NCBI GenBank assembly: GCA_021774965.1 | Contig: JAJFIL010000308.1 | Coordinates: 1-64,000, forward strand | Length of the DNA: 64,000 bases | Source: Alphaproteobacteria bacterium | Lineage (GTDB): Bacteria; Pseudomonadota; Alphaproteobacteria; JAJFIK01 | Reading direction: 5' to 3' | Shown: positions 34,426 through 53,007 of the stretch, piece by piece | Layout: each line of letters starts with the position of its first letter | Position numbering within the stretch: position 1 is the stretch's first letter | Program-made: the position numbers and the translations under genes | The notes under the pieces: generated by a model | Seen by the model: the letters and a program-made list of their open reading frames with translations, nothing else | Database searches by the model: none | What the model was told of the DNA's origin: nothing

Positions 34426-35150
34426 TACACCGCCTCCCGGATGCGCGTTGCTGAATCTGAAACAATGTTGCCGTCCAGAAAATGAACCTGACGGGTGGCA
34501 TAGGCGGCCATGTCTTCTTCGTGAGTAACCATCAAGATGGTGATGCCGTCACGTTGATTCAGAGTACGGAGCAATTCACCGATCTCATGGCTGCGCTCGC
34601 TATCCAGATTGCCGGTGGGCTCATCGGCGAGCAACAAGGCAGGTTCCGTGGCGATGGCGCGGGCAATGGCCACGCGTTGTTGCTGGCCACCGGAAAGCTC
34701 GGCAGAGGTGTGATGTATGCGATCGGCCAGGCCAACGGCTTCTAATGCGGCCTTGGCGCGTTTGCGTCTCTCACCTCCCGGCGTGCGGCGATAGACCATG
34801 GGCAATTCAACGTTCTTAAGTGCTGTGGTGCGTTTCAGCAGGTTAAAGCCCTGGAACACAAAGCCTAAGTAATGCCGTCGCAACATGGCACGCTGATTGG
34901 GATAAAGAGTGCCCACATCTACGCCGCGGAAATAATAATTCCCTGCTGTCGGCGTATCAAGACAGCCCAGAATATTCATAGCCGTGGATTTGCCAGAGCC
35001 GGACGGACCCATCACAGCAACAAACTCGCCATCGTTGATGGTCAAATCGACCCCATCCAGTGCGCGCACTTCTGTTTCGCCATCGCCATAGGCTTTGACC
35101 ACATTGCGGAACTCGATGAGTGTTTTCTTGTCTCCAGTGGCAAGCATCAA
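34425..35150 (-). CDS. MacB/LolD-type ABC transporter ATP-binding protein
   Basis: [51 protein letters not shown]; 1-nt stop/start overlap with permease. Confidence 0.95.
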
Positions 35151-35183
35151 CGCGCCCTCCTCTTTGTCTGATCCGCAGACGGA

Positions 35184-36404
35184 TTAATTGCCGCGGCGAT
35201 TGCGAACCACATCGACGATAACTTCCTGGCCGACTTCCAGCATGCCATCCAGAATGACCGTCAGGCGTCCATCAGATTCGCCGATCTCCAGCTCAAGAGC
35301 TTCCGGGATGCTCTGTTCTCCCTCGCCTTCGGTCTCGAGCCAAACCTGACCGCGCAGGGTGCCGTCAGATGAGCTGGGGCGTGCAGCGTCTTCCTGATCA
35401 GGAGGCATGAAACGCAAGGCCCCATTGGGCACCAGCAAGGCGTCTTCCACCACGCCCACGGTGATATCCGCGGTGGCGGTCATGCCGGGCTTAAGGGAAA
35501 AATCGGGGTTAGCAACCACCAACAAGGCCTCGTAAGTCACCACGCCGGATTGCTGGCGCGGAGCGTTGCGCACTTGAACGATCTCTGCCTCAAATTCCCG
35601 TGCAGGATAGGCGTCCACGGTAAAGCTGGCCATTTGACCTTCGTGCACCACGCCGATGTCCGCTTCATCCACATCCACCTGCAATTCCATTTGGCTGAGG
35701 TCCTGCGCGATGGTGAAAAGATGAGGTGTCTGGAAAGAGGCGGCAACGGTTTGGCCTTCCTCGATCAAACGGTCCAGCACCATGCCGTTGATGGGCGAGC
35801 GGATCTCCGCTTCACCAAGGCGAGATTGCGCACTGTCGAGGGCCGCTTGCGCTTGCACCACACCGGCTTCGGCGCGAGAGACACCAGCCTCAGCACTGGC
35901 CAAGGCAGCGTTGCGTGTATCCAGCGCCTGGGGGGAGGCATTATTGTTTCGCACCAGGGCAGAAGTTCTGTTGCGTGCAGCACGTGATTCCAGGGCGATG
36001 GCGTTTGCTTCGGCAAGGGATGCTTCTGCAGAAGCAAGCGCTGCGTTGGCCTGCACAACAATCGCGCTCAGCTCTTCGGTATCTATTAGCGCCAGAAGAT
36101 CCCCTGCGCTCACCTCATCATTGAAATCCACCAACACTTCGCGAATAAGGCCAGAGACCTCGGCGCCCACCTGAATTTGATTTGTAGGCTGAAGTTGGCC
36201 GGTGGCATTCACCAGCACCGTCAGTGTGCCGCGAGTGATCTCAGCGGTTTCGTATTCGGTGATCTGCGGCCTGGTCACAAGGAACGTGATACCGGCAATC
36301 GGGGTGCCGATGAGAAGAAACCAGAATATGGTCCAGAACTTCCAGGTCTTGCGCTTCTTTGGCTTGCCCAGCGTGGCTGTAATATCGTTGGTGTTCTTTT
36401 TCAT
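35184..36404 (-). CDS. MacA-like periplasmic adaptor (HlyD family)
   Basis: N-terminal TM; VNATGQLQPTNQIQVGAEVSGLIREVLVDFNDEVSAGDLLALID; coiled coil. Confidence 0.92.
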   Translation of the reverse strand: MKKNTNDITATLGKPKKRKTWKFWTIFWFLLIGTPIAGITFLVTRPQITEYETAEITRGTLTVLVNATGQLQPTNQIQVGAEVSGLIREVLVDFNDEVSAGDLLALIDTEELSAIVVQANAALASAEASLAEANAIALESRAARNRTSALVRNNNASPQALDTRNAALASAEAGVSRAEAGVVQAQAALDSAQSRLGEAEIRSPINGMVLDRLIEEGQTVAASFQTPHLFTIAQDLSQMELQVDVDEADIGVVHEGQMASFTVDAYPAREFEAEIVQVRNAPRQQSGVVTYEALLVVANPDFSLKPGMTATADITVGVVEDALLVPNGALRFMPPDQEDAARPSSSDGTLRGQVWLETEGEGEQSIPEALELEIGESDGRLTVILDGMLEVGQEVIVDVVRNRRGN

Positions 36405-36613
36405 ATCCCGCACTCTCAAATTCGAACAAGGTTTTGGCAGGCCCTCGAAAAACGAGGCCCCGCATCTGTGATGACGCTCACACTATGAATGGATGCACGA
36501 CCAAGCGCCTTCAAAATGGAAGGCAGCTTTTGTTGGCCCCGCCTACCCCTCTTAGATGGGGTGAGGGAATGGCGGAACAAGGGCGGGAAATGAGCGCGAT
36601 TGAGGCGAATTGA

Positions 36614-36659
36614 GTACCCCGGCCAAAGGCCGTTAAGTACCCCGGCCAAAGGCCGTTAA
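36614..36659. repeat. Two tandem 23-bp units GTACCCCGGCCAAAGGCCGTTAA, each with a CGGCC-AAA-GGCCG hairpin
   Basis: Direct reading; second unit overlaps the stop codon of the adjacent permease gene. Confidence 0.85.
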
Positions 36660-37819
36660 GTATAAGGATCCGCAGCATCCCTCATGCCGTCGCCCAAGAA
36701 GTTGAACGCCAGGATGGTCAGAATCACGGGTATCATGGGGGCGAGTAACCAGGGGTAGAACTCAACCGCCGCTAAATTTTGCGCCTCATTCAGCAAGACC
36801 CCCCACGAGGTAATGGGCGATCTCAGCCCCAACCCCAGGAATGAGAGAGCCGTCTCGCCCAAAATCATTGTGGGGATGGACAAGGTGGCGCTAGCGATCA
36901 GATGGCTCATGAAGTTGGGGGCGAGGTGGCGGAAGATGATGCGCTTGGGCTTGGCCCCCATCAAGGTGGCGGCGGTCACATAGTCCTCTTCGCGCAAGGC
37001 CAGGAATTTTGAGCGCACGGCACGGGCCAACCCCGGCCAATCCAGCAGCCCCAAGATGATGGTGATGCCAAAATAGACCAATATGGGCGACCACCGGACA
37101 GGGATGGCAGCCGACAAGGCCATCCACAGAGGCAATTCCGGCAAGGATTTTACCAGTTCGATCAGACGCTGGATCGATGCATCCACCCAGCCGCCAAAAT
37201 ATCCCGCGACCCCGCCAATGACCAATCCCAGGACAAAGCTGATGGCGATCCCCACCAAGCCAACGGTCAGGGATATACGTGTGCCATGAAGAATGCGCGA
37301 GAACATGTCCCGCCCCAAACGATCCGTTCCCAACAAAAATAATGTGCCGTCCGTCGCGGGGCAGATAAAATGAAAGTCGGCGTTGATCAATCCCCAAAGG
37401 CGATAGTCCTCGCCGGAACAGAAAAACCGCAAGCGGTCAATGTCTGCTTCATTGTTCACATAAATCCGCTGGAAGGTCTGGATATCCACGGTGTGTTCAT
37501 AGCCATAAGTAAATGGCCCGATGAACTGGCCCTCATGGAACAGGTGCACCCCTTGGGGCGGGGCGTGGATATAATGGCTGTCGCGACTGGAAAGATCGTA
37601 AGGCACAAGGAACTCTGTCAAAGGAATGGTGGCATAAAGCACGATCAGCACAATGGCTGAGAACATGGCCAGCTTATGGCGCTTGAACTTCCACCACATG
37701 AGCGAAAGCGAGGATGCGGTCCCCGGCATGGAGCCGGTCCCGGATTGGCGCTCGGCTTCGGGATCGAAAGGTGCTGGGTTCACATAATGAGGCAGATCGC
37801 TGGTGGTGGTCTTGCTCAT
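36656..37819 (-). CDS. Oligopeptide ABC transporter permease (YejE/OppC type)
   Basis: LGTDRLGRDMFSRILHGTRISLTVGL; EEDYVTAATLMGAKPKRIIFRHLAPN. Confidence 0.93.
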   Translation of the reverse strand: MSKTTTSDLPHYVNPAPFDPEAERQSGTGSMPGTASSLSLMWWKFKRHKLAMFSAIVLIVLYATIPLTEFLVPYDLSSRDSHYIHAPPQGVHLFHEGQFIGPFTYGYEHTVDIQTFQRIYVNNEADIDRLRFFCSGEDYRLWGLINADFHFICPATDGTLFLLGTDRLGRDMFSRILHGTRISLTVGLVGIAISFVLGLVIGGVAGYFGGWVDASIQRLIELVKSLPELPLWMALSAAIPVRWSPILVYFGITIILGLLDWPGLARAVRSKFLALREEDYVTAATLMGAKPKRIIFRHLAPNFMSHLIASATLSIPTMILGETALSFLGLGLRSPITSWGVLLNEAQNLAAVEFYPWLLAPMIPVILTILAFNFLGDGMRDAADPYT

Positions 37820-38865
37820 CGCGTGTCCTCCGCACCCAGACGAATGCGCGGGTCAAGCCAGCCCAGCAAGAGATCAGAGATCAACATGCCCACCACCGTC
37901 AGCATGGCCACGAACAACAAGATAAAGCCCGACAAATAAGTATCCTGGACTTGCAAAGAGGTGAGCAGCACCGGGCCGATGGTAGGCAGGTTCAACACCA
38001 CCGACACAATAATGGAGCCCGAAATCAGCGAGGGCAGCAGATTGCCGATGTCGGCGATAAAGGGGTTCAGCGCCATGCGCAGAGGGTATTTGATCAGGGC
38101 ACGGGTTTCCGAAAGACCCTTTGCCCGGGCGGTGACCACGTAAGGTTTTTGCAGCTCATCCAGAAGATTGGCCCGCAGGCGGCGGATCATGGCGGCTGTG
38201 CCCGCCGTGCCGATAACGATCACCGGAATGATCAAATGCATCAAGACGGATTGAAGCTTGTCCCAGGACCAGGGCTGGTCCAGATATTCCGGCGCCATCA
38301 ATCCCCCGATGGAAAGCCCAAACCAGATATTAAAATAGTACAGAAGAATGAGCCCCAATAAGAAATTGGGTGTGGCAAGGCCGATATAGCCGAGCAGCGT
38401 AAAGCCATAATCCCCCCAGCTATAGGGCCGCGTTGCAGAGTAAATCCCGATGGGAAAGGCCACAAGATAAATAAAGATCACCGCCGCCAGGTTCAAAACA
38501 ATGGTCAGTATCAGACCTTCGCCGACAATTTCCGAGACGGGCCGCTCATACTCAAAGGACCAGCCAAAATCGCCCTGAATGAGCCCGGAGAATTCAAGCG
38601 TGGTCTCGCCATCCACTTCGCGCTCATGCGGCCAGACACCAATCCACAAAAGATAACGCACGGGGAGGGGCTTATCGAGATCATATTCCTGTTGATAAAA
38701 CTCGATCTGCGCAATCGAAGCCTCTTCACCCTGGGAGCGTAGCTCATCAATGCGATTGGATAGAATGTCGCCTTCGGGGAGCTCAATAATCAGAAACGTC
38801 AGCACACTGATGGCAATCAGCGTGGGGATCATGATAAGAAGGCGCTCGACCGTATATCGGAACAT
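37816..38865 (-). CDS. Oligopeptide ABC transporter permease (YejB/OppB type)
   Basis: MFRYTVERLLIMIPTLIAISVLTFLI; YVVTARAKGLSETRALIKYPLRMALNP. Confidence 0.93.
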   Translation of the reverse strand: MFRYTVERLLIMIPTLIAISVLTFLIIELPEGDILSNRIDELRSQGEEASIAQIEFYQQEYDLDKPLPVRYLLWIGVWPHEREVDGETTLEFSGLIQGDFGWSFEYERPVSEIVGEGLILTIVLNLAAVIFIYLVAFPIGIYSATRPYSWGDYGFTLLGYIGLATPNFLLGLILLYYFNIWFGLSIGGLMAPEYLDQPWSWDKLQSVLMHLIIPVIVIGTAGTAAMIRRLRANLLDELQKPYVVTARAKGLSETRALIKYPLRMALNPFIADIGNLLPSLISGSIIVSVVLNLPTIGPVLLTSLQVQDTYLSGFILLFVAMLTVVGMLISDLLLGWLDPRIRLGAEDTR

Positions 38866-38920
38866 GGGCGTCTGACGTCTTCCTCAATAAAACTCAAAGT
38901 GCGCGCAAGACGCGTGCAGC

Positions 38921-40864
38921 CTATTCCGTTGCTGGGTCAAACCAGAACTGATCGGGGTGGTAGATACCGATCTGGGCCCCTGGATCCCAGCTATAGACGC
39001 CCTGCTCCGGCACATTCCGTAATCTGTTGGAGACCACGATAGGCTGAAGCACGGCGGACACAACACCGATAATAAACTGCTGTTCGGCATGGATTTGCAA
39101 CATGCGCAGCCAAATCACTTCGCGCTCCGCATCATCATCCGAAGCTTGCCATTCCCGGTAAAGCGCCATCAACTCAGCCGCTTCAGCCAGATCCACGGGC
39201 TCTCCCGATTGGCCGCCGGTCTGGAAATACTGCCCCCATTTGGGCCAGTTCAGCGTGTCCTGCCGCGTAGGGGCAAGAACGGCGGGGCTCATGCTGGCGG
39301 TGGCCAGGCCATTGTCCCACCCGGCCCAGACCGTCATCAGGGCTTCGCCGGAATAGGCCCGGTTGCGCATGACATCCCGGCTTGAGGTGCGGATCAGCAC
39401 GCGCACGCCGATTTCGGCCCAGGTCTCGGATACCAGTTCCAGGAAATCTACTTCCTGAGGGTCTTCGCCCGCCGTTTCGATAATGATCTCCATGGGCCGG
39501 CCGTCGCGCAACAGGCGCATGCCATTGGCGCCGCGCTCATAAAGGCCCGCATCATCTAGCAGGCGATTGGCCTCATCTGGGGAATAGGCCGCATAAAGAC
39601 CAAAGTTGCTTTCCCGATATAGAGGGCTGAGGGGCTGCAATGTATTGCCGCCCTCTGCTGCCAGACCAAAGAACAAGGAGAGATTGATCCCGTGTCGGTC
39701 GATGCCCATGGACAAGGCCCGCCGCACCCGCACGTCGCGAAAGATACGCCGCCAGACAGGGTCTTCAACGTTCAGATTGGGATAAAGCGCAAAATGGGCT
39801 GACTTGCCGTCTGGCCACAGAATGGTGCGATAGTTGGCGCGCTCTTCGCCACCGCGCAAAACCGTGGCATCAGAAAAATTAAGCCCGCGAGATTGAAGAT
39901 CGGTTTCGCCCGCATTGGCCATGGCGGGGATCAGCCGACCTTCGGCCACGGTCATATCCACTTCGTTGATATAAGGCAGCTGCCGCCCGTTCTCATCGAC
40001 ACGGTGGAAATAAGGATTGCGCATGAAGATGAAGCGATTGGCCGGCGGCACCGTGGTGTTCAGCCAGGGCTGCAGCGTTGGCAGGTCCGGATTATCCATG
40101 CGGTACATGTTATCGCGGCGATTATGCAGGGCGGCCCAGGAGCTGACGCTTGCTTCTTCCATGGCAGCGACAACGATGCGCGGAATGCCGTAATTCTCGT
40201 GAAACTGCCTCAAATAATGCGCTGGGCGATAGATAAAGACGGGCCGTGCCCGCGCCATCATATCCAGGAACGAAGGATTGGGCGCAGACCAGCTGTAGCG
40301 GATGGTAACTTCGTCAATGACCTCTACAACGGGGGCTTCTCCTTCAACAAGAAGCTCAGCAGGTGGACCGGATGGGGAGAGGGATTCGTTGTTGGCGACA
40401 TCCTCCCACCAATAGCGGAAATCCTCAGTGGTAAAAGGCGCGCCGTCCGACCATTTGTGGCCGGGGCGGAGATGCAGCGTATAGACGCGGTCCTCCTCTA
40501 CATCCACGGCCAACAGGAGATCCGGCTGCAGGTCCAGCTCTGGCGTATAGCCCATGAGGCGTGCGTAGCCATAAACCGACATAAGGCGAATATCACGAGC
40601 GCGGGAAATCAGTGTACGGAGCTCTCCACCATAGGTGCCGGGGGTAAGGTCGCCTTCAAGGTGGACTATTTTCGGGATTTCCGGGATGCGCTCGCGCACA
40701 GGCGGTAATTCACCGGAAACAACCCGGGGCCCCAGAACCGGCGGCTCAATAAACAATGTGTCTTGCGCAACAGAAGGAGCGATGGATAGGCCCAGCACCA
40801 GCACAAAGGCCAGCGCTGCGAGGCCCGCAATTTGGGCTGCGGCAAAACTAAACAGGTTACGCAT
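38921..40864 (-). CDS. Extracellular oligopeptide-binding protein (SBP family 5)
   Basis: Signal peptide; LRPGHKWSDGAPFTTEDFRYWWEDV; VRRALSMGIDRHGIN. Confidence 0.93.
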   Translation of the reverse strand: MRNLFSFAAAQIAGLAALAFVLVLGLSIAPSVAQDTLFIEPPVLGPRVVSGELPPVRERIPEIPKIVHLEGDLTPGTYGGELRTLISRARDIRLMSVYGYARLMGYTPELDLQPDLLLAVDVEEDRVYTLHLRPGHKWSDGAPFTTEDFRYWWEDVANNESLSPSGPPAELLVEGEAPVVEVIDEVTIRYSWSAPNPSFLDMMARARPVFIYRPAHYLRQFHENYGIPRIVVAAMEEASVSSWAALHNRRDNMYRMDNPDLPTLQPWLNTTVPPANRFIFMRNPYFHRVDENGRQLPYINEVDMTVAEGRLIPAMANAGETDLQSRGLNFSDATVLRGGEERANYRTILWPDGKSAHFALYPNLNVEDPVWRRIFRDVRVRRALSMGIDRHGINLSLFFGLAAEGGNTLQPLSPLYRESNFGLYAAYSPDEANRLLDDAGLYERGANGMRLLRDGRPMEIIIETAGEDPQEVDFLELVSETWAEIGVRVLIRTSSRDVMRNRAYSGEALMTVWAGWDNGLATASMSPAVLAPTRQDTLNWPKWGQYFQTGGQSGEPVDLAEAAELMALYREWQASDDDAEREVIWLRMLQIHAEQQFIIGVVSAVLQPIVVSNRLRNVPEQGVYSWDPGAQIGIYHPDQFWFDPATE

Positions 40865-42770
40865 CGGCTCTTGCCTCACTTGTTACATCCTGCCCGCCAG
40901 AGCTTTGCTGCAGTTTCCCCACAGCGACCTGATGGCCCGCGCCTAACTCTACCATGGTGGGGGCCTGATCAAAGCCAAGACGATATTTGCCGGGCCAGGC
41001 CTCCGGGTTGGAAGCTCGGCCTTGCAATATCTCGTCCAGGTCCAGTTTTTGCGCCAAATCGGGCGAGGGTATGGCCTGCATCAGGGCCTTTGTGTAGGGG
41101 TGTTGCGGGTCCTTGAAAAGGGCGGCTTTCGGCCCTTGTTCCACGATCCGCCCCGCTGCCATCACCGCCACATGATCGGCGATATAGTCCACCACCGCCA
41201 GATTATGGCTCACAAAGAGATAAGTGAGCCCCAGGGCGCTCTTGAGGTCCTTGAGCAAATTGAGGATTTGTGCCTGAACGGAAACATCCAGCGCAGACAC
41301 CGGCTCGTCCAGAATCAGGACCTCAGGCTCCAACGCCAGAGCCCTGGCGATGCCGATGCGCTGGCGCTGACCTCCAGAAAATGCGTGCGGATAGCGCCGG
41401 GCAAATTCGGGGTCCAGCCCCACTAGGCGCAGAAGGTGTGCGACCCGCGTGCGCATTTCCGCAGGTCCGCAAAGGCGGTGGATCTCCATGGGCTCGGCCA
41501 GGATTTCGTGAACCGTCATGCGCGGATCAAGAGAGGCCTGAGGGTCCTGAAAGACATATTGAACCTTGCGGCAATAATCGCGCGCGGGTTCTCCTTCAAG
41601 AGTGCTCACATCAAACGAGCCATTGGGATCGTTGTAGGTGACGGTGCCTTCGTCAGGGGAAAAGGCCCGCGCGATGGTTTTGGCCAGGGTGGTTTTGCCG
41701 GAACCCGATTCCCCCACCAGGCCAAGGCAGCTGCCTCGATTGAGCGTCAGGGATACACCATTGATGGCGATGGTCTTTACCCCTTCGCCGCGGCCCCAGC
41801 TGTTGGCCTTCTTGGCGGTGAAGCTTTTGCTGACACCGCTGATCTCAATAAGAGGCGTGCCTTCTGCGGCTCGGTCGTCACTTTGCGGAAGGTCTCTAAT
41901 CCCGCCGTTGATTTCTGGGGCGACCTGCCGCAAAGGCGTGAGGCGTGTATCAGCATCCAGCCCCATGCGCGGCACCGCTCCCATCAGCGCTTTAAGATAA
42001 GGGTGCTCGGGACGTTCAAAAAGATCCGTTGTGGTGCCGGCCTCCATGACCTCGCCGCCATAAAGGACCACCACTTCATCCGCCAGGTTGGCGACGACGC
42101 CTAGATCATGGGTGATGAACAAAACCCCCATGTCGGAATCGCATTGAAGATCAATGATCAACTTCAGGATTTGCGCTTGGATGGTAACGTCCAGCGCCGT
42201 GGTGGGCTCGTCGGCGATCAACAAAGCAGGCTTGCAGATCAGGGCCATGGCGATCACCGCGCGCTGGCGCATGCCCCCTGAAAGCTCAAATGGAAATTTG
42301 TGTAGCGCGCCCTCAGGATCAGGAAAGCCAACGCGGGTCAGCATTTCCAGCGCGTGGGCTGCGGTCTCTTGCTTGCTGCCTTTCTCGTGCAGGCGCCAGG
42401 CCTCGCCGATTTGATCACCAATGGTATGCACCGGTGAGAGGGCCGTCATGGGCTCTTGAAAGATCATGGCGACGCGGCTGCCGCGCAACTCTCGGAAGAT
42501 GCGCCCGCGCGGGTCTTGCTGGGCCAGATCCAGCGCGCCATTCGCGCCTTCAGGATCATCAAAGGCAATACTGCCTGATTTGATGCTGGCCGATTGAGGC
42601 AGAATACCCATGACGGCCTGACACAGGACGGATTTGCCAGACCCGCTTTCGCCCACCAGCGCCACGGTCTTGCCGCGAGGTACGCGCAGGCTTGCACCGT
42701 TCAGGGCACGGACGGATCCACCGGGCAGGCTGAAATCAACGCACAGGCCTTCGACCTTCAGGATGTCCAC
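40857..42770 (-). CDS. Oligopeptide ABC transporter, fused tandem ATPase (YejF type)
   Basis: Two complete NBDs: [38 protein letters not shown] and [38 protein letters not shown]. Confidence 0.95.
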
Positions 42771-43354
42771 GGAATGCCCTCCGCGGTTTCAATGCCGGTA
42801 GCTTCCAGATTGGCAAGGGTCGCTTCGTCCAGCATAAGGCCGCGTTGCTGAGCAGCCGTCCAGGCCTCCCGCAACACCGGCTGAAAGGCTTCGTGGGTGC
42901 CATCAAAGGTGAGGGAGATTTTTGCGCCGTTGGCGTCTGTGCCAATCAGCTTGACCATCATCCAGCCGCTTTGTTCTGATTCTTTACGGCGAGAGAAAAA
43001 GCGCAGCTTGAGCTCCTTGAGATCGGCCCAATCCAGGCGCTGTTTGCGGACCATGATCAGGCCCGAGGGGTCCATTGGATTGCGCCAGCCAAAGGTGGTG
43101 CCGTCTTCATCCAGCTCAAGGCGTAAACCATGCCGCCATAAGGTGTGTCCCAGATAGATCACGAACGCCAGGCTCAACAGTCCCGTCAGAAACCAGATGA
43201 AGGTGCCGGGAGTTGTCGCGGTCCACAGGGCAATCATGATCGCAAGGGTTAAGATCACGCGCACATAGTCCCAAATCAGCGCGCGCCAATCCGCATGAAA
43301 GGCATAGCGGGGGGCGGCTCCGGGAATTCGGTTTGCGGCGTGATCGTCACTCAT
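42758..43354 (-). CDS. Hypothetical membrane protein
   Basis: Two TM segments; overlaps start of the downstream ATPase gene by 13 nt. Confidence 0.65.
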   Translation of the reverse strand: MSDDHAANRIPGAAPRYAFHADWRALIWDYVRVILTLAIMIALWTATTPGTFIWFLTGLLSLAFVIYLGHTLWRHGLRLELDEDGTTFGWRNPMDPSGLIMVRKQRLDWADLKELKLRFFSRRKESEQSGWMMVKLIGTDANGAKISLTFDGTHEAFQPVLREAWTAAQQRGLMLDEATLANLEATGIETAEGIPWTS

Positions 43355-43363
43355 GATTGCACA

Positions 43364-44494
43364 CTAGGAAGCCGCAGTAGTCCCGCGCAACCCTTTAAGG
43401 ATCACAGGCACGTTTGAAGTGCCCGAAAGGTTAAGAGCGGGCGCTTTGGAAAGGTCTCTTGCCGCGTTAACGGCTTTGATCAGGCCCGCCGGATTAAGGC
43501 TTTCCGTGCTCAAGGCAATGGCCAGCCCGCGCTCTGAAAAACGTGTCGCGCGCAGACCCTGCTCTGTTTGGCCCGCTTCGGCATAAGGCACCAAAACCGG
43601 CTTGGTTCCCAGCGCCACCGCCTCGGCGACAGTGTTATAGCCCGCCTCGCTGATGGAGATCTCGGCCCGGGCCAGATGGTCCATAAAGTCAGCCCCAAAG
43701 GGATGCACATGAACTTGAGCGTTCTTGGGTGCCGGCTCATCAAGATCCGGCGGCACGAAGATATGCCAGGGCGCATCAATGGTGGCAGATTTATCTCCGG
43801 TCTCGACGGCAACTCCCAGCAGCACTTCGCCTGAAGGGCTTGATCCTGCGGAAACCACAACACCTGATTTTGAACTCAGCTGTGGAGGGGATGGCGCGAT
43901 ATAGCCCGTGTAATGCAAGGGGGCCCCGGCCCCAGCCACAAATGGCGCTGTCTCTTCTAGCCCGATGATGTCTTTATCTCCGTGGACCAGCACGGCATCG
44001 AAGTGATCGGCCAGCCGCTCGCCCATCTCCGCCATCTTGGTGGGCTCGGCCTTGGGCTCGATAATGTCCCGCACCGAAGAGATGATCAGCGGCGCTGTGG
44101 GCAGGGCTCGGGCCGCCTCAATCAGGGCCAGGACTTCGGCGGCAAATTTTCGCCTGCCAAAGGGAAACAACTCGATCAGCACAATGCCCGGAGCAGAGGT
44201 CGCCAGCGTTTCCAACATGGCGCAGCGGCGCATCTGCCAATAGGCCTCATCGGGTGCTTCTCCCCGTGCGCTTAAAAGCCCTGTATACTGATGATTGGAG
44301 GTAGCAAGACTTGGCAGCTGATGAGCGGTAACCCCATCAATCCCCGCGAACGCCTCACGCCCCTCAGGGCCACCTGCCACCACGGTAACCTCCATGCCGG
44401 ATTGCGCGCAGGCAGCGGCAATTCGCGCCATACGCCGTACATGGCCCTTGCCAAAAAGATGCTGCACCCAAATGAAAAGCGACGGCGTGCTCAT
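43364..44494 (-). CDS. GT28/MurG-like glycosyltransferase A
   Basis: WVQHLFGKGHVRRMARIAAAC; ISEAGYNTVAEAVALGTKPVLVPYAEAGQTEQGLRA. Confidence 0.8.
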   Translation of the reverse strand: MSTPSLFIWVQHLFGKGHVRRMARIAAACAQSGMEVTVVAGGPEGREAFAGIDGVTAHQLPSLATSNHQYTGLLSARGEAPDEAYWQMRRCAMLETLATSAPGIVLIELFPFGRRKFAAEVLALIEAARALPTAPLIISSVRDIIEPKAEPTKMAEMGERLADHFDAVLVHGDKDIIGLEETAPFVAGAGAPLHYTGYIAPSPPQLSSKSGVVVSAGSSPSGEVLLGVAVETGDKSATIDAPWHIFVPPDLDEPAPKNAQVHVHPFGADFMDHLARAEISISEAGYNTVAEAVALGTKPVLVPYAEAGQTEQGLRATRFSERGLAIALSTESLNPAGLIKAVNAARDLSKAPALNLSGTSNVPVILKGLRGTTAAS

Positions 44495-45117
44495 GAGGGC
44501 GCGCGCTGTCTTAAAGGCACGTTCAGCTCTTCTACCTCCAACATGCCATGTTCATTCAGTTGCAGAATATGCGCCGCGGTCCATTTCAGTTTCACTGGTT
44601 CAGGGGGCAGCATGTCCCAGCTCAAGGCGGACGCTAGGGCTGCGCGAATGACGCCCTTATGGGTAATCACGCCATAGATGCCTTTATAGTCGCCGCCACA
44701 ACCTCCATCGTTCTCAATATTCCTATTCCGCGCCCAGTCCAGAACGCGGGCCTGAACCTCAACGGGGCTTTCCCCGCCAGGGGGGCGAAAGTGAATGCCG
44801 CGATCTTCATGAGCTTTCATGCCGGCGGGATCTTCGTCGCGCAGCTGCTGTACCGTGCGCCCTTCCCAATGGGCCCAATCCATCTCTGTCAGCCGCGGAT
44901 CGGGGGTCGCATCCGCAATGCCAAGGGCCTCGGCGGTCTGCCGCGCTCGAGCAAGAGGGCTGGTATACCAAATGGCATCATCCAGAAGAGCTGGTGCGCG
45001 CAAAGCCTCCATGGTGGCAAGACCCTCCGAAGAAAGATCTGTATCCCGCAGGCCCTGAATGCGCTTTTGCTTGTTCCATTCCGTAAGCCCGTGACGGATA
45101 AACCCGATGCGGATCAA
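44491..45117 (-). CDS. Histidine phosphatase (phosphoglycerate mutase-like)
   Basis: IGFIRHGLTEWNKQKRIQGLRDTDLSSEG; YTSPLARARQTAEALG. Confidence 0.9.
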   Translation of the reverse strand: MIRIGFIRHGLTEWNKQKRIQGLRDTDLSSEGLATMEALRAPALLDDAIWYTSPLARARQTAEALGIADATPDPRLTEMDWAHWEGRTVQQLRDEDPAGMKAHEDRGIHFRPPGGESPVEVQARVLDWARNRNIENDGGCGGDYKGIYGVITHKGVIRAALASALSWDMLPPEPVKLKWTAAHILQLNEHGMLEVEELNVPLRQRAPS

Positions 45118-46160
45118 AACGCACCTCCAATAGTATCATTCAGAGTACGGAGGAACTGCGCCTTGGAGAAGTTCGCTTCCACATGGGCGCGGCCTCTTTC
45201 CGCCATGGCTTTGCGCACGGTCTCATCCGCCAATCCATCAATGGCAGCGGCCATGTCTTCAGGCTCCGGCCCTGTCAGGCACGCTGTTTCTGGCGTAAGG
45301 ATGCCGCGCAGGGCCGGGTTATCGATGGCGACCACAGGCAGGCCTGCCGCCTGGGCCTCAAGATATACCACCCCCAGCCCTTCGCCGTGTCCCGGCCAGA
45401 CAAAAACATCCGCAGCCCCATAGGATCGGATCAGATGCTCGTGGTTCATGGGGCCTGCGAAGTTAATGCGCATACCAAATTCCGCAAACAGGCCCACCAC
45501 GCGCTCATGAGCAGGACCGTCGCCTGCCACGGTCAGGGACCAGGGCACGGTCAGATGTCTCAGCGCCCGGGCGAGAGTGCGATAGCTATCCAGCTTGTCC
45601 CCCTCCCGCATCATGGCAGTTGTGTGCAGGCGCAGTCCCGTATGAGGCGGCAAGTGTGGGGCCTCCCACGCCTCCGGATCAATCCAGGGGCGAAGCTCGG
45701 TCACTGTTTTCAAACCCTCTGCCTCAAGGGCGGGCAGATCGCGAGGGCAGGTAGAGAAAATCGCCTGCGCTTGGTGAATTGCGTCTCGCGCCAGCTTATA
45801 CCCCTCCGCCCACTGATCATTGGCGCGGCGAGGGGAGAGGGAGGCTTCGGCGATGAAATAGGGAATACCTTGGGCCGCAGCAATCTCAGGCCCCAGAAGA
45901 TCAGGCGCCTTGTAGTAGACGTGATAGGTAAACCAGGCATCGAATTTCTGGGCCTTCAGACGCTCAATTTCCGCCTCCGCCTCTTTACGGAACCCAGGCA
46001 GGGCCGTGGGCTCCGGCGCCCAAGTTTTAAGGCGTGAGACCAGGAAGACGTCATGGCCTAAATCCTTCAACCCTTCCATAATTTGCCGGGCAATCAATCT
46101 GTCCCCGGAGGGCTGGCCATCATCAGGCACATTCATGGGGGCGTAAAAAGCTATTTTCAA
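45114..46160 (-). CDS. Glycosyltransferase family 4
   Basis: LTVAGDGPAHERVVGLF; VFVWPGHGEGLGVVYLEAQAAGLPVVAID. Confidence 0.88.
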   Translation of the reverse strand: MKIAFYAPMNVPDDGQPSGDRLIARQIMEGLKDLGHDVFLVSRLKTWAPEPTALPGFRKEAEAEIERLKAQKFDAWFTYHVYYKAPDLLGPEIAAAQGIPYFIAEASLSPRRANDQWAEGYKLARDAIHQAQAIFSTCPRDLPALEAEGLKTVTELRPWIDPEAWEAPHLPPHTGLRLHTTAMMREGDKLDSYRTLARALRHLTVPWSLTVAGDGPAHERVVGLFAEFGMRINFAGPMNHEHLIRSYGAADVFVWPGHGEGLGVVYLEAQAAGLPVVAIDNPALRGILTPETACLTGPEPEDMAAAIDGLADETVRKAMAERGRAHVEANFSKAQFLRTLNDTIGGAF

Positions 46161-47434
46161 CGTGAGGTCTCCTCAACAGGTGTGGCGCTAGGTGGCGCGG
46201 CATTGGGCGGCGCGGCGCTAGGAATGCGTTTTGCGAATAATGCAGCCAGTCTATCTGCCCAGTTGCGACTATCAAACCCGGCGCGAACAGAGCGCTGCCC
46301 GTTGTGGGCAAGGTGCTGGCGCAGCGGTTTATCCTGGGCCAGTCGCGTAATAGCATTCGCCATCTCTGCGGGGTCGCTTGAAGGCACCAGCAATCCGGTC
46401 TGCTCATGGGTGATCAGCTCGGATATGGCGCCTGCGTCGGTTGCCACTACGGCACAGCCCATGGCCATGGCCTCAGCTAAAACATTGGGAATGCCGTCAC
46501 GATCCCCGTCAGGCTGATTGGTGCTGGCCAGAACAAAGATGTCTCCTCGCCCCAACAGGTCAATAACCTCCCCTTGAGGCTGGCTGCCCCGCCAGGTCGT
46601 GCGAGAGGCAAGGCCAAGGGTATTTGACTGTTCCTTCAAGCCATCCAGCAAAGGCCCCCCGCCGATATGCTCAAAACTCCAGTTCAGCTCAGGGGGCAAG
46701 GCAGCGAATGCCTCTAAAAGATGCTCATAGCCTTTCTTGGGCACGCCGCGCCCAACGGAAATGATGCGCAGGGCTCCGTCGCCAACTTCAAGCTCTGTAG
46801 ACGGATTAAACCGCGCAAGATCTATCCCGTGATACATAAGGTCCACGGGGCCTGCCTTCGGGGTGCCAAGTCCATTGAGATGATCGGCCCCGGCGCGGGT
46901 GCAGGTCGCGCCAAACAAGGCCTCGGGCAGTTTCTCTTCAATCTCCCAATTCGGAATGGTCCAGATGTCCTTGGCGTGGGCGGAAAAGCTCCATTCCCGA
47001 CCCGTGATCAGTGCGGCATAGCGGGCAACGGAGGCCGGGGTGTGCAGGAAGTGAGCGTGAAAATGAGTGACCTCTGGCGGCACTTCCGCGGCCAGCACCA
47101 TGGCCTGACCAAAGCGCCGGGCCCGGTTGCGGGTAACGTCCCGGGCCCCATCCCGGGCAAAGCAGGCGCGGGCCGCAAGATAACCCGGCAAAATGCGCAC
47201 CTTGCGCCAGGCCTTGATCACCCGGGCGGGCTCGTCATGAAGATATTCCGGCAGGTAGCTTACCGGTGCCTTGATTGCGTCATGCACCGGGTGGGTCTGG
47301 ATATCTGTGGGGGCTCGCAGGGAGTAGATACTGATCTGAAACCCGCGCGCCTCCAGACTGGCAATCTCTTGTGCGATGAAAGTTTCCGACAGGCGCGGAT
47401 AGCCCTTCAGGATAAATCCGATGTGACCGGTCAT
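46157..47434 (-). CDS. Glycosyltransferase family 4 (start at MTGHIGFILKGYPRLSETF)
   Basis: GYPRLSETFIAQEIASLEARG; IISVGRGVPKKGYEHLLEAFA; GIPNVLAEAMAMGCAVVATDAGAISELI. Confidence 0.9.
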   Translation of the reverse strand: MTGHIGFILKGYPRLSETFIAQEIASLEARGFQISIYSLRAPTDIQTHPVHDAIKAPVSYLPEYLHDEPARVIKAWRKVRILPGYLAARACFARDGARDVTRNRARRFGQAMVLAAEVPPEVTHFHAHFLHTPASVARYAALITGREWSFSAHAKDIWTIPNWEIEEKLPEALFGATCTRAGADHLNGLGTPKAGPVDLMYHGIDLARFNPSTELEVGDGALRIISVGRGVPKKGYEHLLEAFAALPPELNWSFEHIGGGPLLDGLKEQSNTLGLASRTTWRGSQPQGEVIDLLGRGDIFVLASTNQPDGDRDGIPNVLAEAMAMGCAVVATDAGAISELITHEQTGLLVPSSDPAEMANAITRLAQDKPLRQHLAHNGQRSVRAGFDSRNWADRLAALFAKRIPSAAPPNAAPPSATPVEETSR

Positions 47435-47494
47435 GGCGTTGGCCTTTGATGGCAATAGGCCTGCGAAGCTGATGGAGAGTGCAATAACGAAATC

Positions 47495-47832
47495 TCTACC
47501 GCGGCATTCCGGTTTAGATCCAAACGCCCATGGACGTGCCGCGTGCCTACGGCATCCCCCCCATCCTGACCTTCCCCCTCGCAGGGGGGAAGGGACGAAA
47601 ACCGTACAATTGCGCCACAAAACACCTCCCCCTTGAGCAGGGGGGAGGTCCGAGTGAAGCGAGGGGTGGGGGTGGCAGACCACCGTTGGGCACAAATGAA
47701 AACAAAGTCTCCGTTTTCGCAATCTGTTTCGATCCCAGCAAACCATTGCAGTCGAAACAACTCCTGCAGAGTTAAACCGGACAACAACAGATCAAGTCCC
47801 GCTATGACCAGAAATTTGAGTTTCAATTCCAT
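47495..47832. repeat. MITE-like dispersed repeat, copy 2
   Basis: CCGGTTTAGATCCAAACGCCCATG...GAGTTAAACCGGACAACAACAGATCAAGTCCCGCTATGACC...TTTGAGTTT aligned to copy 1. Confidence 0.8.
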
Positions 47833-47861
47833 AATATCTCATCGACCTCGGTTGGAACCGC

Positions 47862-49058
47862 TCAGCGCCGCCGCGCCCGCTTGAGATAGGGCTGGATCCG
47901 GTCGCAGATCGTGTCAAACCCGCTCAAGGCATCGGCAGAAAGGGCTGCCGAGGGGCGAGGCATATTGGGTAGAATGCGCATAGCATCCGCCATTACGTCC
48001 GCATATCGCGGCGCGCCGCCCGCTTCCATTGGGTCAATCAAGACATGACACAGGCCAAGGGTTTCGGCGCGATTGGCGCGTATGGTCTGTTCCGCGCGAG
48101 GGGTCATGCGCGGCACGATCAAGGAAGGCTTGTCATGGCTGAGGATTTCGCAAAATGTGTTATAGCCCCCCATGGCCACCACACCGGAGGATTTGGCCAT
48201 GAAGTGCTCAATCCGCGCATCAAAGACCAAAGTCTCCACATTGGAAAGCTTTGCTGCACGGGCTTCAAAACCGTCGCGCGCCTCGGGTGGCAAAAATGGT
48301 CCGTATACGATCAATGCAGGAAGAAGATCCTTGCCCGACGTCTCATAGGCTGACAGAACCCAATCGATCAGCCCGGCGCCGTCACCGCCTCCGCCGGGGG
48401 TCACCAGCAAGAACTTATCCTTGGTCACCTCGGGCCAAACTTCGGGCAAAGTGTATTCGGGCAAGGGGCGCGGCAGATACCCCGTGAAGGTGGTTTTCTC
48501 CCGTGTTCCCTCGGGAAGCTCCAGGCCCTCCAGCGGGTCGGAAATGTCATCCGGGCCATAGGCCCATATTTCATCGTAAAGCGGCAGGGCATCGAACGCG
48601 CCTTTGCGCTCCCACTCCGCGCTCAAGGATTTGGTCTCGTCCAGCACATCGCGCAGCCCCAGAACCAGCCGGGTGCCCCGGTCCTTGAGCAGGGGCAGGG
48701 TGGATTTCAGCTCTCCGCGCAGCCCCCAGGGCTCTTTGTCCACGATGAAGACATCCGGGGCGAAGGTTTCCGCCGTATGCTCGATGATGGAGCTGCGCAA
48801 GGCCATGGTCTGATCCAGCTCGATATGTAGCCCAAGGGAGGTGTAAGCCCCGTTGCGGAGCTTGATCACCCCCGGCACGCGGACGAAATCCACCCGTGCC
48901 TTAAAGTCAAAGCTGCCTATCAGGGGCGAGCCGGACAGGATCAGCACCGAAAGGCGCGAATAGTTCTCCACCAGGGCATGGGCAATGGCCCGGGCGCGGC
49001 GCAAATGGCCCAACCCGAAGGTGTCATGGCTATAGATAAGAACCCGAGCGCCGTTCAT
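47862..49058 (-). CDS. GT28/MurG-like glycosyltransferase B
   Basis: LIYSHDTFGLGHLRRARAIAHALV; VTPGGGGDGAGL; VAMGGYNTFCEILSHDKPSLIVPR. Confidence 0.85.
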   Translation of the reverse strand: MNGARVLIYSHDTFGLGHLRRARAIAHALVENYSRLSVLILSGSPLIGSFDFKARVDFVRVPGVIKLRNGAYTSLGLHIELDQTMALRSSIIEHTAETFAPDVFIVDKEPWGLRGELKSTLPLLKDRGTRLVLGLRDVLDETKSLSAEWERKGAFDALPLYDEIWAYGPDDISDPLEGLELPEGTREKTTFTGYLPRPLPEYTLPEVWPEVTKDKFLLVTPGGGGDGAGLIDWVLSAYETSGKDLLPALIVYGPFLPPEARDGFEARAAKLSNVETLVFDARIEHFMAKSSGVVAMGGYNTFCEILSHDKPSLIVPRMTPRAEQTIRANRAETLGLCHVLIDPMEAGGAPRYADVMADAMRILPNMPRPSAALSADALSGFDTICDRIQPYLKRARRR

Positions 49059-49181
49059 CATTGCCACCCCAATTACGACCCTTATTACGGCCTAAATACG
49101 ACTTCTACCGCAGCCTCTATTCTGGCCTCTATTCTGGCCAATGCCGCCTTGTCCCAAAACGTGCCCCGAGGCTAAGGTGCG

Positions 49182-52028
49182 GTGAGGCTTGAGTCACGCT
49201 TCACGTTGGATAATTGGTTACAAAAGTCAAAGGTACTCTCCGGGATTGCACTTAGGGGTGCGCCTCGGATTACACCCTGGATCACACAGGACCCAAGCTT
49301 GGAAAAGAATCTCTTCCGGTACATTTGGAATTATTCCAGGCGCGAGCAGCTGGCGGTGCTGGTGTTCGTGGGGCTTGCCTTGCCGTTCTATTTCGCCTCG
49401 CTCTCCCTGCCCCGCTATATTGTTGATGCCATTGAGACCGCGGCACGTAATTTTATAGAACCTGAGCTCGCTACTGAGACCAGCGGTATCTTCATGCGGC
49501 TCAGCTTGCCTTGGCCGGATTTTCTGGGCGGCGGGGTGCAATTCTTCCAAGGCTGGGAGCTGAGCCTGGAGCCTTTGATCCTGGCGCTCAGTTTTACCTA
49601 TCTTGCGCTGGTGATGATCAACGGCGGCTTTAAATTCCAGATCAACACTCTGAAGGGCCGTATGGGTGAGCGGATGTTGCGGCGCTTGCGCTATCAGTTG
49701 GTGGATCGGATCCTGCGCTTTCCCACCAGTTATTTCCGCAAGCTCAAGCCCGCTGAAGTTGCTTCCATGGTAAAAGACGAGGTCGAACCTTTGGGCGGCT
49801 TTATCGGGGATGCCTTTGTGCTGCCCATCTTCCAGGGCGGCCTGGGGCTTACGGCGCTCATTTTCATCATGGTACAGAACTTCTGGCTGGGCTGTATGGC
49901 GGGTGCTGTGGTTCTGGTGCAGGCCTTTATTATTCCAAAGCTGCGGCGGCCTATCCTGCGCCTGGGCAAGGAACGCCAGATCGCTGCCCGCCAGCTTGCA
50001 GGCCGCGTGGGCGAGTTGATGGATGGGGTCCAGGAGGTGCGCATCAATGCGACCTCCAACTATGAGCGCGCCGATATGACGGCACGCCTGGGGCGTATCT
50101 TTGATATCCGCTATGAAATCTTTCGCCGCAAGTTCTTTGTAAAGTTCCTCAATAATTTTCTGGGCCAGTTCACGCCGTTTCTGTTTTATGCGGTGGGCGG
50201 CATTCTGGCGGCACGCGGGCAACTGGATGTGGGTCAGCTTCTGGCCGTTCTGGTGGCGTACAAGGATCTGCCCGCGCCGGTAAAACAATTGATCGACTGG
50301 GATCAACAGCGCCTGGACGTGCAGATTAAATATGATCAGGTGATCGATCACTTTGACCCTGAAGACATGGTGGAGCCTGAACTTCAGCGCCCAGTAGGCG
50401 AGGTTAGTCATCTGCGCGGTGGTATTGAGGCCTCAAATCTTACGGTGACCGATGAGACGGGCGCGCGGCTGTTGCAGAACATCTCGTTCTCTGTGGCCTT
50501 GGGCGAGACCCTCGCCGTGGTGGGCCCCGCAGCGGGCGGTAAGGAGCATCTGGGGCCGACCTTGGTGCGCCTGTTTGGGGTTAGCGGGGGCAAGCTCGCT
50601 CTCGGGGGGCACGACCTGAGCAATCTGCCCGAAGGCATCATCGGTCGTTGGGTCGGGTATGCCGGGCAGGACACATATCTTTTCCCGGTCAGCATGCGGG
50701 AGAACCTTACCTATGGCCTCAAGCATGAACCTGTTGGTGAGGCAGATGACGCGATGCACCCCAGGAAGGCCTGGATAAATCGCGAAACCCAGCGTGCAGG
50801 CAACGCGCCTTTTGATATTGATGCGGAGTGGGTGGACTATCAATCCGTCGACGTGGAAGGCCCCGAAGCACTGAGCAAACGCATGCTGGAAGTTCTGCGC
50901 ATGGTCGGCCTGGAAGACGATGTCTATGAGCTAGGCTTATCAGGGCGCGTTTCTCTGGAGACGCATCCAGAGCTCATCACCAAACTTTTGGCGGCGCGCG
51001 AGCTGCTGCACAAACGCATCGAGGAACGCAGTCTGGGCCATCTGGTGGAGCGGTTTGATCCTGATCGCTACAACAACAATGCCTCCCTGGCGGAGAACTT
51101 GCTGTTCGGTCTGCCGTGCGGGCCTTTGCTGGCAGAAGGGGCGCTGGCGCAGCATCCTTATTTTGATGAGGTGATGAGCCGCTCGCATATCGCCGACAGG
51201 GTCGCAGGCATGGGCTTTGAGATTGCCCGCACCATGGTGGAATTGTTCGCGGACTTGCCAGCGGATCACCCGTTCTTTGATCAGTTCTCCTTTATCTCCG
51301 CCGACGAGTTGCCGGATTACCAAGCGCTGGTGAACCGCTATACCGGTAAAGTTTCCCACAGTGATCTGACGGAGGACGATTGCGGGCGGCTGGTCTCCCT
51401 TGCGCTGCGCTATGTTGAATCCCGTCACCGCCTGGGCTTGATCGATGATGACTTTGCCGCCCAAATCGTTCTTGCCCGGAAGATGTTTGCCCGCGGGCTG
51501 CCCGATAATCTTAAAGGCGCCGTGGAACCCCATGAGCCGTCGGCCTATAATGGTGCCACTTCTATTCAAGATAATTTGCTCTTTGGGCGGATCGCCTATG
51601 GCCAGGCCAAGGCGCAAGAACGGGTGGGTGTTTTGCTCACGGAAGTGCTTGAGGAATTGGGCCTGCACGAGGCTGTTTATGCCGCAGGGCTTGACTTCAA
51701 CGTAGGCCCGGGCGGCAAGCGTCTGACCACGACCCAGCGTCAATTGGTGGGCCTCGCGCGCGCAATCTTAAAGCGCCCGGATATTTTGGTGGTGGATGCG
51801 GCGCTGGCGGTGCTGGATACCTCCATGCAGAAAATGATCCTGGATAATGTGCTCAAATCATCCGGCAGCCGGGCGGTGATCTGGATCCTGGCGCGCCCCT
51901 ATCAGGCCAAGTTGTTTGATCGTACCTTGGTGATTGACGAGGGCCGGGTGATCGAAGAAGGAACCGCAGAAGATCTGGACGCAAGAGGCGGGCGCTTTAC
52001 GGCCCTTGCCGCGTCTCCTCGAGGTTAG
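49182..52028 (+). CDS. ABC-exporter-like protein with degenerate, internally duplicated NBD (948 aa, GTG start)
   Basis: ABC exporter TM domain (LKGRMGERMLRRLRYQLVDRILRFPTSYFRKLKPAEVASMVKDEVEPLGGF); NBD remnants VVGPAAGGKEHL, GYAGQDTYLFPVSMRENLTYG, SLAENLLFG, SIQDNLLFG, TTTQRQLVGLARAILKRPDILVVDAALAVLD. Confidence 0.92.
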   Translation: MRLESRFTLDNWLQKSKVLSGIALRGAPRITPWITQDPSLEKNLFRYIWNYSRREQLAVLVFVGLALPFYFASLSLPRYIVDAIETAARNFIEPELATETSGIFMRLSLPWPDFLGGGVQFFQGWELSLEPLILALSFTYLALVMINGGFKFQINTLKGRMGERMLRRLRYQLVDRILRFPTSYFRKLKPAEVASMVKDEVEPLGGFIGDAFVLPIFQGGLGLTALIFIMVQNFWLGCMAGAVVLVQAFIIPKLRRPILRLGKERQIAARQLAGRVGELMDGVQEVRINATSNYERADMTARLGRIFDIRYEIFRRKFFVKFLNNFLGQFTPFLFYAVGGILAARGQLDVGQLLAVLVAYKDLPAPVKQLIDWDQQRLDVQIKYDQVIDHFDPEDMVEPELQRPVGEVSHLRGGIEASNLTVTDETGARLLQNISFSVALGETLAVVGPAAGGKEHLGPTLVRLFGVSGGKLALGGHDLSNLPEGIIGRWVGYAGQDTYLFPVSMRENLTYGLKHEPVGEADDAMHPRKAWINRETQRAGNAPFDIDAEWVDYQSVDVEGPEALSKRMLEVLRMVGLEDDVYELGLSGRVSLETHPELITKLLAARELLHKRIEERSLGHLVERFDPDRYNNNASLAENLLFGLPCGPLLAEGALAQHPYFDEVMSRSHIADRVAGMGFEIARTMVELFADLPADHPFFDQFSFISADELPDYQALVNRYTGKVSHSDLTEDDCGRLVSLALRYVESRHRLGLIDDDFAAQIVLARKMFARGLPDNLKGAVEPHEPSAYNGATSIQDNLLFGRIAYGQAKAQERVGVLLTEVLEELGLHEAVYAAGLDFNVGPGGKRLTTTQRQLVGLARAILKRPDILVVDAALAVLDTSMQKMILDNVLKSSGSRAVIWILARPYQAKLFDRTLVIDEGRVIEEGTAEDLDARGGRFTALAASPRG

Positions 52029-52045
52029 ATGATGGAGCAAGACAC

Positions 52046-52519
52046 GTGAGCCTGAGTGATGAAGTCGAACTGCTCCGCAAGGTGCCTATCTTTGCCAATG
52101 TGGAATTGGCGAAGCTGAAGCTGCTTGCCTTTACCTCAGAACGCATGCGCTTTGACCCCGGCCAGGTGGTTTTCAAACAGGGGGATGCCGGCGATGCTGC
52201 CTATGTGATCATCGAAGGGGTGGCCGAAGTCATGGTGGACACCCCCACCGGGCCGATAAAGATTCTTGAATTCGAACAGCACTCGTTCATCGGTGAAATC
52301 GCCATTCTGTGTGATGTGCCGCGCACGGCCTCTGTGATCGCCAAGACAGAACTGCACACTTTACGTATCTCAAAGGATTTGTTCTTCCGCCTGGTAGAGG
52401 AATTTCCGCAAATGGCAGTGGAGATCATGCGCGTGCTGGCCATGCGGGTGGAGAACACCACAGCTGAGCTGACCGATGCGCGCAACCGCCTGCGCGAAGC
52501 CGGCCTTGAAACTGATTAA
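52046..52519 (+). CDS. Stand-alone cyclic nucleotide-binding domain protein (GTG start)
   Basis: GQVVFKQGDAGDAAYVIIEGVAEV; FIGEIAILCDVPRTASVIA; no HTH domain. Confidence 0.92.
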   Translation: MSLSDEVELLRKVPIFANVELAKLKLLAFTSERMRFDPGQVVFKQGDAGDAAYVIIEGVAEVMVDTPTGPIKILEFEQHSFIGEIAILCDVPRTASVIAKTELHTLRISKDLFFRLVEEFPQMAVEIMRVLAMRVENTTAELTDARNRLREAGLETD

Positions 52520-52539
52520 TACGTAGACGGAGCAACCAC

Positions 52540-53007
52540 GTGGCATATGAGACCATCGATCCTGAAAAGCGCAAATCCTATCCGCCTGCCATTCAGGCAA
52601 TTCTGAAAAAGCCCAGCCCGGCAAGCGAATATCTGGGTATCGAGCTTGAGGCTTTGGACATGGACGCCGCCCGCGTGCGGGTGGCCTTTAACGCTGAAGA
52701 GCGCCTGTGCAATAAATGGGGCGGGCTCCACGGGGGCATGGTGGCGGCCATGCTGGACGATTTGATGTCCATTGCGGTGGGGCTTTCTCTTGAATGGGGG
52801 CAAATCACCCCAACATTGGAAATGAAGACCAGTTATATCGCGGCGGGTCGCCCTGGGCGGCTCATCGGGGAAGGCTGGGTGGTCAAGCGGGGTAAATCGG
52901 TGGCCTTTATTGAGGCGAACCTCAAAAACGCAGATGGGGAATTGGTGGCGACAGGTTCGTCCACCGCGCGGATCGTGACAATGAAACCTGCTGAGGAAAA
53001 AGGCTAA
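52540..53007 (+). CDS. PaaI-family (hotdog) thioesterase
   Basis: NKWGGLHGGMVAAMLDDLMSIAV; TPTLEMKTSYIAAGRPG. Confidence 0.85.
   Translation: MAYETIDPEKRKSYPPAIQAILKKPSPASEYLGIELEALDMDAARVRVAFNAEERLCNKWGGLHGGMVAAMLDDLMSIAVGLSLEWGQITPTLEMKTSYIAAGRPGRLIGEGWVVKRGKSVAFIEANLKNADGELVATGSSTARIVTMKPAEEKG

Follow-up and report, generated by a model that had tools for sequence, protein, structure and literature searches.

How could an alphaproteobacterium move, or control, a surface glycan if the transport-like protein encoded beside its glycosyltransferases (GTs) has lost the residues that ordinarily use ATP? This question is raised by a locus in a 64,000-nt stretch of DNA, referred to here as the window (contig JAJFIL010000308.1, assembly GCA_021774965.1). 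A leftward operon encodes, in order, the GT28-like enzyme GT28b, the GT4-type enzymes GT4b and GT4a, a histidine phosphatase and the second GT28-like enzyme GT28a, while the genes for a degenerate ATP-binding cassette (ABC) protein and a cyclic-nucleotide-binding (cNMP) protein diverge rightward. A preliminary description of this DNA proposed an undescribed pathway in which a glycolipid or surface glycan would be exported, or its export gated, by the unusual ABC protein. We consider it about an even chance that the locus encodes a non-hydrolytic translocator or flippase module, combining glycan-making GTs, a cNMP-controlled pseudo-ABC protein and an oligomer importer.

Co-inheritance of the glycosyltransferase and ABC genes

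The preliminary description made its proposal depend on the conserved co-occurrence of the GT genes with the ABC/cNMP genes in other genomes, and such co-occurrence is what we found in 143 alphaproteobacterial genomes, each at least 95% complete. The ABC gene was present in 52 of them, GT28b in 51, GT28a and GT4b in 50 each (identical genome sets) and the gene for a solute-binding protein (SBP), discussed below, in 48, all of which also carried the ABC gene. ABC and GT28b occurred together in 50 genomes, were both missing from 90 and stood alone in 2 and 1, respectively, which corresponds to an agreement of 140/143 (Fisher 6e-35, uncorrected for phylogeny). The GT28b match in one genome (G072) is a distant homologue (34%) found without an orthologous cNMP gene.

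At least six genomes (G034, G140, G041, G119, G135 and G145) carry the two genes on one contig but separated by more than 30 kb, and within a single family (f15) one genome has the whole set (G132) and another has none of it (G016); both points argue against ancestry or linkage alone as the reason for their co-inheritance. In a phylum-wide sample of 299 genomes, all 27 positives were alphaproteobacteria. A few loci come from metagenome-assembled genomes labelled Betaproteobacteria, which may be misbinned. The near-identical presence and absence of these genes across the 143 genomes, together with the phenotypes published for Sinorhizobium meliloti, support the idea that the GT and ABC/cNMP genes form one functional unit.

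Extent of the unit

To delimit the unit, we used 80 named loci collected with the ABC profile; the resulting counts are lower bounds because many contigs stop within the cluster. The cNMP gene accompanied the ABC gene in all 80 loci, GT28b in 65, GT4b in 60, GT28a in 57, the ATPase of an Opp-type importer in 49, GT4a in 46 and the phosphatase in 28. In Rhizobium plasmids, the genes form a single codirectional block, OppDF-SBP-permA-permB-GT28b-GT4b-GT28a-ABC-cNMP, with a class III cyclase ahead of it. The cluster therefore reaches left to the importer genes at 36656-42770, an integral part that the preliminary description overlooked. It had instead included a hotdog thioesterase, which recurs in only 2 of the 80 loci; the Ca2+/Na+ antiporter (CaX) gene that follows it, also considered as a member, recurs in 1, and thus we regard both as mere neighbours.

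The interval originally noted shows, as first described, neither a polymerase nor a flippase nor any of the standard capsule genes. Similarly, no Wzx, polymerase, KpsMT/Wzm-Wzt or initiating phosphosugar transferase is found among the Pfam and NCBIfam matches of the cluster, the rest of the genome not having been searched. A defence system was also considered and set aside, as the PADLOC hits were limited to weak ATPase matches and generic cNMP domains. Some methyltransferase belongs to the cluster in 42 loci. A PF12692 (Methyltransf_17) gene follows ABC-cNMP in many Rhodospirillales-type loci (for example, L058 13327-13815) and is absent from the window.

A degenerate ABC protein with a conserved membrane domain

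The pseudo-ABC gene occupies 49299..52028 on the plus strand. Its product combines a type IV exporter membrane domain (PF00664, E=8e-17) with a split nucleotide-binding domain (NBD) in Pfam searches. It is predicted by AlphaFold2 (AF2) to fold as a type IV exporter, with a predicted local distance difference test score (pLDDT) of 84 and a predicted template modelling score (pTM) of 0.79, and the model matches TmrAB, PCAT1, MsbA and Atm1 in Foldseek with E values of about 1e-17.

That the protein is degenerate, as originally suggested, is confirmed by 80 homologues, in which all catalytic motifs of the NBD are altered. The Walker A Ser/Thr is replaced with Glu (52) or Asp (20) in 72 of 78 homologues (88% E/D when weighted), while the glycines of this motif are invariant and its Lys is kept in about half of the homologues. 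The Walker B Asp has become Asn in 69 homologues (weighted, 81%), the H-loop His is left in 3 (weighted, 5%), the catalytic Glu is kept in 23% (weighted) and the LSGGQ glycines are gone. As a control, those further ABC exporters from this genome that we checked are canonical in all motifs. From these residues, the ATPase is predicted to be dead across the whole family, and thus ordinary ATP-driven export is unlikely.

Could the protein nevertheless remain an ATP-driven exporter with a noncanonical site, in which the conserved Glu/Asp of Walker A and Asn of Walker B stand in for the usual metal ligands? The consistency of these replacements does not resemble random decay, and the Walker A glycines are invariant, as such a site would suggest. 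On the other hand, a site of this kind would have to work with the Walker A Lys in only half of the family, with the catalytic Glu and the H-loop His mostly missing, and without the signature glycines, which makes this explanation improbable.

Within the protein, conservation is highest in the membrane domain (0.74, compared with 0.57-0.59 for the NBD parts). The NBD itself is interrupted, between its Q-loop and signature regions, by an insert of about 320 residues (50682..51686, plus strand), which is conserved in all homologues. The NBD segment around a conserved NLLFG motif aligns with further copies of itself (hhalign probability 97.8 and E 6.7e-13 for copy 2 against copy 3; 90.1 and 1.6e-6 for copy 1 against copy 2). 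Because the insert holds two of these 'xNLLFG' copies, this part of the NBD has been triplicated. Three homologues (G336, G429 and G432), with open frames of 1097-1137 aa, give a match split in two within the NBD and are probably fused, further expanded forms.

The protein shares its membrane domain and NBD fold with type IV ABC exporters and lipid flippases such as MsbA, TmrAB, PCAT1, Atm1 and PglK, but, unlike them, it lacks the catalytic motifs, carries the insert with the triplicated segment and has an obligate cNMP partner. SbmA/BacA (SLiPT) transporters work independently of ATP with an exporter-like membrane fold and no NBD; their resemblance to the pseudo-ABC protein is at most an analogy. 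As far as our full-text searches of an open-access library show, an ABC family predicted to be ATPase-dead, coupled to a cNMP protein and carrying a triplicated NBD segment has not been described.

The cNMP-binding partner

The gene downstream (52046..52519, plus strand) encodes a protein of 157 aa in which the cNMP domain (PF00027) is the only match. Pfam finds no C-terminal DNA-binding domain in it, and it therefore does not qualify as a transcription factor of the CRP/FNR type. Its phosphate-binding cassette is intact, with the Gly conserved in 100%, the Glu in 98%, the Arg in 100% and the Ala in 98% of 100 homologues, from which its ligand is predicted to be cyclic AMP (cAMP) or cyclic GMP (cGMP). 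In sister lineages (Ruegeria, Azospirillum and two further genomes), the cNMP domain forms the C-terminus of the ABC protein itself, which argues for a physical partnership. A class III cyclase gene lies beside the cluster in S. meliloti, Rhizobium leguminosarum and Phyllobacterium; the genome of the window encodes three class III cyclases, all located elsewhere than the cluster.

ABC exporters with a cNMP-type domain are known in other systems, since NHLM ABC2 and the TIGR03896 (cyc_nuc_ocin) bacteriocin exporters combine the two and give weak matches here. These systems differ in that they export peptides, have ATPases that are active by annotation and lack glycosyltransferases.

The Sinorhizobium meliloti counterpart

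The cluster is not as new as the preliminary description supposed, for its S. meliloti orthologue was named in 2023. Travin et al. 2023 (PMC10128002) described the phazolicin-protecting polysaccharide (PPP) locus, smb21252-smb21271 on pSymB, and reported that cells become more sensitive to phazolicin when any of nine genes between smb21252 and smb21271 carries an insertion, and that an uncharacterised surface polysaccharide, PPP, depends on these genes. For the smb21265 mutant, the minimum inhibitory concentration of phazolicin was 0.18 µg/ml, compared with 1.47 µg/ml for the wild type (8-fold more sensitive), and a cyaA mutant was 2-fold more sensitive (PMC10128002). According to the same source, a pyocyanin screen in A. 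tumefaciens had found orthologues. Furthermore, attack by Myxococcus raises the expression of PPP genes (PMC10315480). The protective phenotype of the locus has been published for S. meliloti only.

In pSymB of S. meliloti strain 2011, we found the orthologues in the same order, namely importer, GT28b, GT4b, GT28a, ABC and cNMP, with 64% identity for permease B and 56% for permease A. The gene after FkbM in this block is a LacI regulator, and the LacI gene is SM_b21272 (PMC11387232); counting backwards from it, gene order, rather than direct look-up, places the GT28b orthologue at SMb21265, in agreement with its annotation as a 'glycosyltransferase family protein' (PMC10128002). By the same synteny, the orthologues of the ABC and cNMP genes would be SMb21269 and SMb21270. 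The KPS genes smb20804/20805 had also been considered as the counterpart and were rejected once SM_b21272 and the strain 2011 gene order had fixed the mapping.

The window carries the genes of a PPP-type locus, with orthologues of the importer, GT28b, GT4b, GT28a, ABC and cNMP genes, in divergent order. The S. meliloti block differs from it in having an additional class III cyclase, polysaccharide lyase, methyltransferase and FkbM gene, in lacking GT4a and the histidine phosphatase, and in being codirectional, whereas the ABC and cNMP genes are divergent in the window. The main text of PMC10128002 does not discuss the ABC and cNMP proteins or place their genes among the nine.

Genes and corrected coordinates in the window

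The genes named in the preliminary description are present where it placed them, and Pfam assigns them to the families proposed: two GT28-C proteins, two GT4 proteins, a His_Phos_1 phosphatase, an ABC_membrane plus ABC_tran protein, a stand-alone cNMP_binding protein and a 4HBT protein. On the minus strand lie GT28a (43364..44494, PF04101), the branch 1 histidine phosphatase (44491..45117, PF00300, E=4.6e-38), in which the RHG motif and the second catalytic His are conserved, GT4a (45114..46160), GT4b (46157..47428) and GT28b (47862..49067). Three 4-nt overlaps (ATGA, TTGA and TTGA) do join GT4b, GT4a, the phosphatase and GT28a. GT28a and GT28b are homologous (BLASTP E=5e-13), have the motif GLGHLRR / GKGHVRR in common and, on sequence grounds, are paralogues. 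The AF2 model of GT28b (pLDDT 90.6) matches GT-B enzymes in Foldseek; single-sequence and profile searches gave no solved relative, and the fold indicates GT-B only.

Two starts needed correction. That of the GT4b gene at 46157 is 47428 instead of 47746, since the longer open reading frame, which seemed to be 106 codons too long, enters palindromic repeat-like DNA. This DNA fills the gap between GT28b and GT4b (47429-47861) and holds two similar copies, one of them CCTCCCCCCTGCTCAAGGGGGAGG. For the ABC gene, the start is probably the TTG at 49299 and not the annotated GTG at 49182, because its homologues begin to align at residue 39/40 and the model gives residues 1-36 a pLDDT <50. The short divergent region between GT28b and ABC (49068-49298) contains small direct repeats, with CTCTATTCTGGC occurring twice, and is possibly a regulatory region shared by both genes.

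The Opp/Dpp-type importer, also on the minus strand, consists of permease B (36656..37819, BPD_transp_1 plus OppC_N) and permease A (37816..38865), both identified with Pfam and conserved in the cluster, the family 5 SBP (38921..40879, SBP_bac_5) and a dual OppDF-like ATPase (40857..42770). Between it and GT28a lies a gene for an accessory small membrane protein of 198 aa (42758..43354, minus strand), without a Pfam or NCBIfam match and found in 18 of the 80 loci. Genes for a MacB-like permease, an ATPase and an HlyD-type adaptor, which resemble those of ordinary tripartite efflux systems, adjoin the importer at 33211-36419.

The solved structures nearest to the SBP are 5ipw, the pectin-binding SPH1118 and an alpha-galactoside-binding protein. 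SPH1118 from Sphingomonas sp. A1, its closest characterised relative, likewise belongs to an Opp-type gene set and serves in pectin chemotaxis and assimilation, but no glycan-synthesis genes have been reported alongside it (PMC7055323, PMC9314435). Given these relatives and the polysaccharide lyase in the S. meliloti block, it is plausible, although the inference is weak, that the cargo of the importer is an oligosaccharide.

A possible mechanism and its alternatives

For the organism of the window, we infer the synthesis of an envelope glycan and its structure, its transport, the direction and substrate of that transport, the gating and the importer cargo. GT28b, GT4b, GT4a and GT28a, with the phosphatase in part of the lineages, would assemble a cell-envelope glycan in the cytoplasm. 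The pseudo-ABC protein, having no working ATPase site, would then translocate or flip a glycan intermediate, the substrate moved being the glycan or a lipid-linked precursor. The cNMP protein would sense cAMP or cGMP and act on the pseudo-ABC protein through its enlarged cytosolic domain, opening or closing it, and the Opp-type importer could bring in pieces of the glycan, or of one related to it, to be recycled or sensed.

This scheme retains much of what was first proposed: the surface polysaccharide gains support from the phenotypes of the S. meliloti orthologues, and the intact cNMP pocket, the fusions and the cyclases next to the cluster in rhizobia lend weight to the idea of gating, although export of the ordinary ATP-driven type is no longer favoured. 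We would make only a tentative case for the more specific claim that the pseudo-ABC proteins, widespread in alphaproteobacteria, are ATP-independent envelope-glycan translocators on which cAMP or cGMP acts as the gate, by way of a dedicated cNMP subunit or a fused domain.

Several observations weigh against transport of a glycan. PPP is only a 'putative' polysaccharide according to the authors (PMC10128002); the closest solved chain to the SBP, 5ipw, is annotated as an oligopeptide binder, and SBP family 5 also binds peptides; and shared ancestry inflates Fisher values such as the one given above. Two genomes (G045 and G146) and several Ruegeria plasmid loci carry the ABC and cNMP genes without adjacent GT genes, and thus the pair may serve a different purpose or work with a partner encoded at a distance. 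Among the Ruegeria plasmids, two carry an ABC-cNMP fusion without neighbouring glycosyltransferases (L131 12052-15021 and L135 12001-15096), and L131 also has an Opp-type importer, at a distance of about 7 kb from the fusion.

The loss of catalytic residues would fit a receptor or scaffold equally well. The pseudo-ABC/cNMP pair might sit in the membrane without transporting anything, the former exporter fold holding the cNMP domain as well as the glycan or its lipid carrier. Like other pseudo-enzymes, it would then regulate the glycosyltransferases or bring them together. Its large conserved cytosolic insert could be a docking surface, and both the family-wide loss of ATP-hydrolysis motifs and the two GT-free genomes that retain the pair are consistent with such a role. 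A pure scaffold, however, would not need a membrane domain that is the most conserved part of the protein. We regard this explanation as possible but somewhat doubtful, the high conservation of the membrane domain tipping the balance slightly toward transport.

An importer-first system, in which an external oligosaccharide or peptide is taken up and processed, the GTs modify the import and the surface-glycan phenotype is secondary, appears very unlikely: the importer does track the other genes in 48 of 50 genomes, pectin- and galactoside-binding proteins resemble its SBP and a polysaccharide lyase has been added in S. meliloti, but glycosyltransferases require the cell's own sugar donors and acceptors, no catabolic enzymes are conserved alongside the cluster, and sensitivity to a peptide antibiotic, the phenotype of the GT28b orthologue, was read by the authors as loss of a barrier (PMC10128002).

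Implications for envelope biology

A five-gene core and its cNMP partner are kept or lost as a set across about one third of the sampled alphaproteobacterial genomes, including those of legume symbionts, for which published work links the locus to resistance against a peptide antibiotic. The conserved ABC protein, predicted to be ATPase-dead, and its cNMP partner offer a concrete candidate for the missing step of glycan export or control. If this is true, cAMP or cGMP signalling would be tied directly to the protection of the envelope, beyond transcription alone.

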